From the IMG/VR virus record IMGVR_UViG_3300025645_000038, positions 1 through 64,000 of that record: a DNA stretch of 64,000 nucleotides. One strand, 5' to 3'. The notes beneath the pieces are model-generated. The model saw only the letters and a list, made by a program, of their open reading frames with translations, did not search any database and was not told the DNA's origin. Below, in pieces: positions 7,593-12,232 of this stretch; position 1 is the first letter of the stretch, and each line of letters begins with the position of its first letter. The stretch comes from a virus. The translations under genes were made by a program, and so were the position numbers.

Positions 7593-7892
7593 ATGGCTAA
7601 GAAAAATCAACCGTTAGATAGAGAGTATTTCAAAAGAAGAGCTAATCCTACTATTAAAAAAGGCCCACAACTAACAAAATGTTGTGGTCAGGATAAAGAT
7701 TACGATAGTCTAAATGTTAGAAATAGTGAAGATTGGAAACTGATTGAAAACTATATTGAAGAACATCTTAGGGAGTATACTAAACACATAAGTGTTACTC
7801 CTGTTTCTTGTGATAAGTGTGGTATTCTTTTAGAGTATTCTACTGATATTGATATAGATAAGACATTGGGTTACTATGAAAAAGCTGGCTAA
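7593..7892 (+). CDS. small protein with possible zinc site, 99 aa
   Basis: Start directly abuts the previous TAG, RBS GGAG. Cys pairs occur at about 30-31 (KCCGQ) and 73-76 (CDKCG), compatible with one zinc site. The remainder is charged and helical. The next ATG overlaps its TAA. Function unknown. Confidence 0.65.
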   Translation: MAKKNQPLDREYFKRRANPTIKKGPQLTKCCGQDKDYDSLNVRNSEDWKLIENYIEEHLREYTKHISVTPVSCDKCGILLEYSTDIDIDKTLGYYEKAG

Positions 7893-8527
7893 TGTTATCA
7901 AAAGAGTTTCTAACAGAACGAGGGTATTGTTGTGGACACGGTTGTTTGATGTGTCCATACGAACCTAAACACATAAAGGATAATACTATATTGAAAGTCA
8001 TAAATTGTTTTAAAGAAGACAATCCATTAATTCAAAAAACTTTAAGGAGAGTAACAGTTGAAGAAGGAGAAACTATTGCAACAAAACTATTTCAGATACT
8101 TAACGAAAGAGGGGACGGTATTGGGTTGGCAGCTAATCAAGTGGGAATTGATGCGTCAGTTGCCGTGGTTAACGTTAAAGAGCCAATCATTCTTATCAAT
8201 CCTAAAATCGTTAGGAGAGAAGAAGAAACAAGATACTACGAAGGTTGTTTAAGTTATCCGAAAAAAGGTTGTCATACTAAAAGATATAAGATTGTAGAAG
8301 TAGAAGTAGACAACTATGAGAGTAACCTAACCTTTGGCGCTGGTGATACTGAAGTAGATTTGTTAGAGTCTGTTTGTGCTCAACATGAGATTGACCATCT
8401 TAATGGTATGAGAATATTAGATAGGGTTGTGGATACAACTTACAGAGCTGAAATAAAGCCGGGTCGTAATGAACCTTGTCATTGTGGTAGTGGTAAAAAA
8501 TTTAAAAAATGTTGTATTAATAAATAA
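7892..8527 (+). CDS. def: peptide deformylase with N-terminal DUF5522-like and C-terminal SEC-C zinc motifs
   Basis: 211 aa. The deformylase motifs are complete: GIGLAANQVG (76-85), EGCLSYP (117-123, metal Cys119) and HEIDH (165-169). The enzyme removes the N-formyl group from new proteins. Before it lies a Cys-rich segment, RGYCCGHGCLMCPYEP (10-25), matching the DUF5522 pattern. After it lies GRNEPCHCGSGKKFKKCC (191-208), a SEC-C zinc motif like the one at the C terminus of SecA. Typical phage deformylases lack both extensions. The SEC-C tail may target the enzyme to ribosomes or nascent chains (inference). Confidence 0.93.
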   Translation: MLSKEFLTERGYCCGHGCLMCPYEPKHIKDNTILKVINCFKEDNPLIQKTLRRVTVEEGETIATKLFQILNERGDGIGLAANQVGIDASVAVVNVKEPIILINPKIVRREEETRYYEGCLSYPKKGCHTKRYKIVEVEVDNYESNLTFGAGDTEVDLLESVCAQHEIDHLNGMRILDRVVDTTYRAEIKPGRNEPCHCGSGKKFKKCCINK

Positions 8528-9377: not shown

Positions 9378-9796
9378 GGGGCTGTATTGGAAATCGACAG
9401 GTGTTATTTGACAATTGAGTGCAGCAGAGATTGAGTATGTCTCGTAAAAAAAGACTCACAAACCTAATTGACGAATCTAATTCGTTAGACGGGTTGGTCA
9501 TTGATTGGCACCTAGCTGAGTATGATTACTCACCTATGGTTCCAGTCGTTAATGACGAACCAACTTACGCATACGCTGCTTAAGTTACTGAGTTGTCTAA
9601 CACTCGGTCATAAAATAAGTTAGACGAACTCTCTTTAGTTAGGATAGAAGTTAGAGATTAAAGAAACTACCAGTTGGTAACTCTGAGTAAAGTTATAAAG
9701 TAGTTTGTCAGTTACTTCTTATTGAAACTGAACTAAGCTGTAAATGACTCATTGAAAAAAACATACTGGACAGGAGTTCGAATCTCCTCAGCTCCA
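9378..9796 (+). ncRNA. ssrA: transfer-messenger RNA (tmRNA), one-piece
   Basis: tmRNA frees stalled ribosomes and tags their products for proteolysis. The 5' end GGGGCTGTATTGG..ATCGACAGG matches the tmRNA consensus. The acceptor stem GGGGCTG/CAGCTCC has the G3-U70 wobble that specifies alanine, with discriminator A at 9796; CCA is not encoded. The T arm is AGGAG-TTCGAAT-CTCCT (9772-9788). A first pseudoknot like that of E. coli is visible: GAGA/TCTC plus GAGT/ACTC around CTCGTAAAAAAAGACTC (about 9427-9457). The tag frame ends VNDEPTYAYAA-stop (9548-9583), preceded by AGTC as in E. coli. Length (about 419 nt) exceeds the usual ~360 because of extra sequence between pseudoknot 1 and the tag. 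Confidence 0.96.
9548..9583 (+). other. tmRNA tag-peptide reading frame (conventional reading)
   Basis: Codons GTT AAT GAC GAA CCA ACT TAC GCA TAC GCT GCT TAA encode VNDEPTYAYAA, comparable to E. coli ANDENYALAA with the protease-recognised hydrophobic-Ala-Ala end (YAA). The preceding AGTC matches the resume-codon context. The same frame is open upstream to ATG 9437, so the real resume codon could lie earlier, just after pseudoknot 1 near 9470. Confidence 0.75.
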
Positions 9797-9814
9797 CAAA
9801 ATATAAGGAAACTA

Positions 9815-11038: not shown

Positions 11039-12232
11039 ATGAGTTTTAATGATTTCTTCGATGAAGAAAAATTTGACTTCGAAGCTGAACGCAAGAAGTT
11101 TATCGATAACTTAGACTTTCTCAAGTCTATGTCTGTACAAGAACAAACATTATATAAGAAGTGGATGGAGTTTAATGCTGATGTCTATTCTATGACACAG
11201 AAAGCTACACACTTTTCTAAGATAGAGAAATCTATTTGGACACCAAAAGATATTAATAATAAAGAACAAACTATCAAAGAGATAGAAGCCTTAGAACCTT
11301 ACGTTGAAGCAACCGAACAAGGTAACACCAAGCATAATGAAGAGTGGACATTGGTTCGTAGGTTGATTCATACTATGGAGTTTACTGCTAATCCTGGCAG
11401 AAACCTAAAGTTCTATGTCAAAGATAAAGTATCAGGTAAAATATTAGGTATTATTTGTTTGGGCTCTGATGTAACTTCATTGGGTGCTAGAGATAACTTT
11501 ATCGGTTGGACTAAAGACAATAAATTTAAAGATGGTAAACTTAAATATACCTCTATCGGTACAACTATATGTTGTGCTCAACCATTAGGATTCAACTTCT
11601 TGGGTGGTAAGTTAGTAGCAGCTATGGTTACATCATCGGTAGTTAGGGATGCTTGGAAGAAGTTATATGGACAAACATTAGTTGGTTTATCTACTACCTC
11701 TTTGTATGGTATTCACTCTATGTATAACTCTATACCACTTTGGAAAACATTAGGTTCATCATCAGGTAAGATAGCTCTTAAACCAGATGACTCTACATAT
11801 GATGTCTGGCATCAATGGTTGAAAGAAAACCAATCAGAAGAGTATCTGAAACAGACTACACAAAAAGAAGGTGTAGCAGGTCCTCCAACAGGTGTAAAAC
11901 AAAAGGTTATCAATATGATATTCAGAGCCGTTGGAGTTAAAGCATCAACCTATATGCATGGATTTAAGAGAGGTATCTTCTACGCTGATATGTATGAGAA
12001 TGGTAAGGAGTTCCTAAGAGGAGAAATAGAAGAAAAAGATTTGAAGATGAAACAGAAGTATGTTGATGATAGTGATTACATTATGAATTGGTGGAAACCA
12101 AAGGCTATCAAAAGATATATTAAGTTATTTGATGAAGGTAAACTTAAACCAGAGAAGTTATTCTACGGCGACATCGTAGGAAAGACTTGGGAAGAAACAA
12201 AAGAACAATATTTAGGAGAAGTAGGAAGATAA
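11039..12232 (+). CDS. DruA-like (DUF4338) protein
   Basis: 397 aa, RBS AAGAGAG. Residues about 100-260 match the DUF4338/DruA pattern: LKFYVKDKVSGKILGIICLG (123-142), then GARDNFIGWT (149-158), a segment of hydrophobic strands (TICCAQPLGFNFLGGKLVAA), and LVGLSTTSLYGIHSMYN. DruA is the shared protein of the Druantia anti-phage system; its activity is not established. Here no other Druantia gene (such as the DruE helicase) is visible. As a lone phage-borne copy it could act against competing phages or in mobile-DNA functions (inference). A late-like CTATTTACTAATTGAA lies at 11001-11016. Confidence 0.75.
   Translation: MSFNDFFDEEKFDFEAERKKFIDNLDFLKSMSVQEQTLYKKWMEFNADVYSMTQKATHFSKIEKSIWTPKDINNKEQTIKEIEALEPYVEATEQGNTKHNEEWTLVRRLIHTMEFTANPGRNLKFYVKDKVSGKILGIICLGSDVTSLGARDNFIGWTKDNKFKDGKLKYTSIGTTICCAQPLGFNFLGGKLVAAMVTSSVVRDAWKKLYGQTLVGLSTTSLYGIHSMYNSIPLWKTLGSSSGKIALKPDDSTYDVWHQWLKENQSEEYLKQTTQKEGVAGPPTGVKQKVINMIFRAVGVKASTYMHGFKRGIFYADMYENGKEFLRGEIEEKDLKMKQKYVDDSDYIMNWWKPKAIKRYIKLFDEGKLKPEKLFYGDIVGKTWEETKEQYLGEVGR

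Follow-up and report, generated by a model that had tools for sequence, protein, structure and literature searches.

A T4-like marine phage tmRNA predicted to encode a 37-residue tag with a conserved internal motif

A one-piece tmRNA gene in a T4-like phage

We analysed a transfer-messenger RNA (tmRNA) gene, ssrA, and its peptide tag in a 64,000-nucleotide stretch of viral DNA (hereafter, the window), which makes up the initial 64 kb of an IMG/VR virus record of 164,845 bases (IMGVR_UViG_3300025645_000038). The window contains T4-like tailed-phage genes, and the cultured phages closest to its terminase are Microcystis phage Mel-JY01 (57%) and Flavobacterium immuto phages (54%). The tmRNA gene occupies positions 9378–9799 on the plus strand, as do all features described here, and was delimited with Rfam RF00023, ARAGORN and termini read from the sequence. 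It matches the full RF00023 covariance model (positions 1–374) at 85.7 bits (gathering score 47, E = 2.7e-33). The tRNA-like domain has an acceptor stem, GGGGCUG/CAGCUCC, with the alanine-type G-U pair (a G3-U70-type wobble), and CCA is not encoded at the 3' end. Pseudoknot 1 (PK1; 9426–9458), read from the sequence, consists of S1 (GAGA/UCUC) and S2 (UGAGU/ACUCA), with its 3' arm at 9454–9458; across the 89-sequence alignment introduced below, S1 is GAGU in 47 sequences and GAGA in 38, and its 3' side changes to match. As in other one-piece tmRNAs, PK1 is followed by about 11 nucleotides (nt), a conserved A at −4 and an open tag frame with a stop codon. The gene is a complete, real one-piece tmRNA of the Bacteroidota type in a T4-like marine phage.

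Relatives of the phage tmRNA

Relatives were collected in two ways. A tmRNA-independent search with a neighbouring gene (11039–12229) returned 80 loci, about 20 of which have a homologous tmRNA, and a DNA pattern based on the best-conserved segment of the tag frame matched 117 stretches in IMG/VR. Pooling both searches gave 127 full-length matches, 89 of them unique including the window (88 relatives), in 77 clusters at 90% identity. Nearly all are IMG/VR phage contigs; L291 is a contig from a genome collection and is probably phage DNA. The tmRNA had no blastn match in cultured phages, and tblastn of the tag against phages gave a single chance-level match, to a Microcoleus phage (E = 6). Among 84,980 species genomes, the pattern search gave 16 matches, and a tmRNA was found only in a contig of the metagenome-assembled genome (MAG) TMED198, ARAGORN having been run on few of the others. 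This MAG has the phage tmRNA on L291 (NHIV01000037.1, 6025–6475) and its own tmRNA, with the tag ADYGYAAAA, elsewhere (L298); L291 is probably a misbinned phage contig. Two close relatives, L005 and L023, retain only a remnant resembling PK3/PK4 of the tmRNA at about 2440–2547, without the tRNA-like domain, which suggests that they have lost the gene.

The resume codon

ARAGORN places the tag of the window at 9548–9583 (VNDEPTYAYAA*), about 90 nt from PK1. Conservation points to a different start. Immediately after PK1 lies an 11-nt single-stranded spacer, CAAACCTAATT (9459–9469), and then a GAC (Asp) codon at 9470–9472, which is GGC in most relatives; counted from this codon, the −4 base is A (9466) and the −1 base is T. 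At this site both A(−4) and T(−1) are present in 89/89 sequences, whereas at the ARAGORN site A(−4) occurs in 34/89 and the codon GTT in 3/89. The resume codon and frame of the Escherichia coli tmRNA are determined by A86, the base at −4 (PMC2481249). PK1 and GAC are 11 nt apart, the same spacing as in E. coli. Most relatives have 11–13 nt, and a spacing of 3 counted for 16 sequences was an artefact of an additional ACTCA that occurs by chance in AACTCAAAT. Bacteroidota tmRNAs share the resume contexts, TAATT-GGC-GAA in Pedobacter and TAATT-GAC-AAT. When ARAGORN was run on L002–L042, tag starts differed among close relatives and fell at wrong sites (EYDYS.., VNDE.., GDYQ..).

The interval after PK1 is under coding selection

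The frame that begins at GAC 9470 runs for 37 codons (9470–9580) to a TAA stop codon (9581–9583; the stop is TAA in 81, TAG in 7 and TGA in 1 of the 89). Its openness in a single sequence is weak evidence, as 37 open codons of the window's composition have P ~0.135. Between codon 9470 and the tag stop, an internal stop interrupts the tag frame in 0/89 sequences, whereas the two remaining frames contain stops in 87/89 and 89/89. Length changes are also in frame: the distance from GATTGG, within the tag, to an anchor in PK2 takes nine values, of which 88/89 are equal modulo 3, and the sole exception (L243) has an insertion 3' of its stop codon. In control intervals in PK1 and PK2–PK4 of the alignment, lengths vary freely modulo 3. 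The ratio of non-synonymous to synonymous differences (pN/pS) in close pairs is 0.43 in frame versus 1.52 and 1.36 for the two wrong frames; the in-frame value is 0.56 when codons fixed by the search pattern are removed and 0.52 in the pattern-free subset, in which the same long frame is present in 18/18 neighbouring-gene loci that cover the tag region. This comparison shows translation of the whole frame, the site at which it starts and selection on its amino acids. The stretch that separates PK1 from the supposed 11-residue tag is not a structural insert but the opening portion of a tag of 37 codons.

An earlier sequence-only reading of the window had put the end of PK1 near 9457, which agrees with the 3' arm ACTCA, and had seen that the interval before the ARAGORN tag is open in the tag frame, as it also proved to be in every relative. 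It had left two options, a resume codon near 9470 with a tag of about 37 residues or a structural insert ahead of an 11-residue tag. The former matches GAC 9470–9472 and its 37 codons exactly; the latter conflicts with the in-frame indels, with frame-specific coding selection and with an A(−4) that is invariant only at 9470. The alignment with related phage tmRNAs that it had proposed was run, and kept the frame in 89/89, with no in-frame stops in the tag.

Anatomy of the tag

The window tag is DESNSLDGLVIDWHLAEYDYSPMVPVVNDEPTYAYAA, 37 residues, plus an alanine that the charged tmRNA would supply. Tags in the 89 sequences have 34 (4 sequences), 35 (11), 36 (27), 37 (11), 38 (27), 39 (3), 40 (3) or 42 (3) codons. 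Their consensus is (G/S/D)(D/E)xSLxGLxIDWHLA, followed by a variable middle (EYDYS.. or NxEMGFDNFVEP..) and then QPTYAYA(A). The N-terminal module SLxGLxIDWHLA (NSLDGLVIDWHLA in the window, 9479–9517) has L, G, L, D, W, H, L and A invariant in 89/89, although this invariance arises partly by selection of the sequences, because GGGTTR and GATTGGCAYYTRGC are parts of the search pattern; the 18 pattern-free sequences agree. These are the 18 complete tags from the neighbouring-gene search, all of which have the module. Its Leu codons show synonymous changes, and we infer that the module has a function. Tags end in TYAYA or TYAYAA; the last residue is Ala in 88/89, and the last three residues are YAA in 42, AYA in 28 and AFA in 1.

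RNA structure overlapping the tag

The sequence-only reading had described two hairpins in the interval, which fared differently. The first (CGAAT-CTA-ATTCG) lies over the resume codon as ACGAAT-CTA-ATTCGT (9471–9485), and its stem is kept in nearly all relatives as GGCGA-loop-UCGCU. It shows two compensatory pairs: G-C to A-U in the window, L003 and L253, and C-G to U-A in L199, L219 and L276, the latter synonymous on both arms; these six sequences may represent only two events. Because the hairpin covers the resume codon, RNA and protein constraints overlap there. The second (TGAGTA-TGAT-TACTCA) exists in the window but is exact in only 19/89 and corresponds to codons for E-Y-D-Y-S, and was rejected as a structural element. 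Farther 3', a short helix-5-like stem, AACUUA/UAAGUU (9562–9586), lies around the last tag codons, with the stop codon in its 3' strand. Covariation supports this stem: each position is paired in 94–100% of sequences, and A-U pairs are replaced by U-A and G-C.

Gene content relevant to tagging

SmpB, ClpP and Lon (Lon_C) had no match anywhere in the 164,845-base phage record, which implies host factors, with host SmpB needed for tagging. In more distant relatives (G017, G018 and G026; L393–L395), a ClpP-family protease gene is present, with a TAA inside two of the three matches. A scan for sigma-70 promoters and terminators found nothing. About 0.85 kb upstream of the tmRNA, a gene at 7892–8527 reads from its translation as a peptide deformylase with a SEC-C-like end.

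Comparison with known tags

In a 2025 tmRNA database, the commonest tag length is 10 amino acids, and 79 of 97,179 sequences are from phages (PMC11915505). Extended tags are known in Mollicutes; that of M. florum has 26 encoded residues (AANKNEENTNEVPTFMLNAGQANYAFA), ends in NYAFA and is degraded by Lon (PMC9382460, PMC9097571). It resembles the phage tag in being far longer than about 10 residues and in its Tyr-Ala-aromatic-Ala ending. It differs in length (26 versus 34–42 residues), in being cellular rather than phage-borne, in its unrelated internal sequence and in being read by Lon in hosts that lack ClpXP; the phage tags end in TYAYA or TYAYAA and not in the Mollicutes-type NYAFA. The Mollicutes tag is the nearest precedent for the long phage tag. 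One-piece Bacteroidota tmRNAs (tags such as GENNYALAA and DNNYSYRLAA) resemble the phage gene in resume context (TAATT-GGC-GAA or TAATT-GAC) and in C-termini (SYAMAA, NYAYAA), but 29 of the 30 sampled genomes have tags of 9–10 residues, the remaining one being a probable ARAGORN miscall.

Tailed phages are known to carry tmRNA genes, as in Melnitz and marine myophages (PMC9004378), in mycobacteriophages and phage G (PMC4131195) and in Stenotrophomonas phage Marzo. Unlike that of the window, the Melnitz tmRNA is two-piece; the annotated Marzo tmRNA (L426) is permuted according to ARAGORN, which calls a tag of the usual length. Another long tag, AVELSTMTFEDAMAFVGADYAVAA, is encoded by the tmRNA of a more distantly related record (G030, L302), and a pattern built from this tag recovered a second phage family of 24 IMG/VR loci (18 unique) with in-frame 3-nt indels. 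This tag (L302; L361–L392) reads (D/A)VELSTMTFEDAMAFVGADYAVAA, with the motif (D/A)VELSTMTFEDAMA(FVGA or WMNSF)DYAVAA. Both families have long, conserved tags with in-frame 3-nt indels, although the second has 24–26 residues and a different motif, so that at least two families of phage tmRNA have tags of this kind. We found no report of these long phage tags in the open-access literature, the longest tag in the 97,179-sequence database not having been checked. The sequence-only reading had regarded either of its options as a new tmRNA variant; what is new is a longer, phage-borne tag with a conserved internal motif, long tags as such being known from Mollicutes.

Proposed mechanism and alternatives

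We favour, with a probability of about 0.9, a complete tmRNA that resumes at GAC 9470 and encodes a 37-residue tag, which a host protease would read and whose N-terminal part would provide a second contact. The phage tmRNA, presumably charged with alanine given its acceptor-stem G-U pair, would enter ribosomes stalled without a stop codon, probably delivered by host SmpB. The ribosome would resume at GAC 9470, four bases past A9466, read the 37 residues and stop at 9581. The resulting tag would comprise the conserved N-terminal module, a linker of variable length and a degron-like C-terminal end (QPTYAYA or YAYAA). Its C-terminal YAYAA may target proteins that carry it to an AAA+ protease of the host (ClpXP or Lon). 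By analogy to extended Mycoplasma tags with Lon, the N-terminal module may act as a second contact, with a protease, adaptor or unfoldase. During infection, the phage tag may compete with or redirect the short host tag. Lytic infection degrades host mRNA and would thereby produce more stalled ribosomes; what follows could then be governed by a tmRNA and tag of phage origin, and a related suggestion has been made for phage Melnitz (PMC9004378).

Several points weigh against this proposal. Translation of the long tag is argued from sequence comparison, and the degradation and second-contact steps are drawn by analogy. Most relatives were collected with a DNA pattern that already specified some of the tag, a bias from which the 18 complete tags of the neighbouring-gene search are free. 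The hairpin over the resume codon must open before resumption; an E. coli mutant can likewise pair its resume region (PMC2481249).

The same observations bear on the alternatives. If the interval were a new structural element ahead of a normal 11-residue tag (VNDEPTYAYAA, read from GTT 9548), the ARAGORN call, the likeness of AGTC-GTT to E. coli UAGUC-GCA and the conserved hairpin in the region would be accounted for. We give this little credence, as the resume context called by ARAGORN is unconserved and its starts differ among close relatives, insert indels come in multiples of three within a frame under coding selection, and the second hairpin is not conserved. Still more improbable is an ordinary small protein gene overlapping the tmRNA and initiated normally, for example at ATG 9437 (48 codons). 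The frame is indeed open back to that ATG in the window, as the sequence-only reading had stated, but this is not conserved: in the 60 nt that precede the resume codon, 56/89 sequences have an in-frame stop and 79/89 have no in-frame ATG, and 37/89 combine a stop with the lack of any ATG, GTG or TTG ahead of that codon, which excludes an ordinary open reading frame from ATG 9437. Frame conservation also begins just past PK1, within which indels of 1–2 nt occur.

A more serious challenge, which we nonetheless think unlikely, accepts that the long tag is translated and holds that its extension is functionless, a neutral spacer or one kept for RNA folding, with only the C-terminal YAYAA at work. 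In its favour, tags differ in the length and sequence of their middle part, the resume-codon hairpin and helix-5-like stem impose constraint at the RNA level, and the E. coli tag template is largely replaceable with tagging kept (PMC4236655). The N-terminal module nevertheless keeps its amino acids while its Leu codons change synonymously, and the second phage family keeps a different long conserved tag. We entertain, more tentatively than the favoured 37-residue tag itself, the possibility that SLxGLxIDWHLA is a functional domain in its own right, part of a bipartite signal that would alter the fate of stalled-ribosome proteins (through another protease, an adaptor or protection) and override the short host tag, different phage lineages having evolved different long tags.

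Implications

Because ARAGORN misplaces such tags, database tags for these phages may be truncated, and other long-tag tmRNAs may be mis-annotated. tmRNA tags are usually read as short, near-minimal degrons, most often of 10 amino acids. The tags of 34–42 residues in this widespread group of marine phages, with their conserved motif, suggest a reprogramming of ribosome-rescue output by phages that goes beyond supplying more of it, and the conservation of a tag of about 37 residues suggests that the phage alters the fate of proteins from stalled ribosomes.
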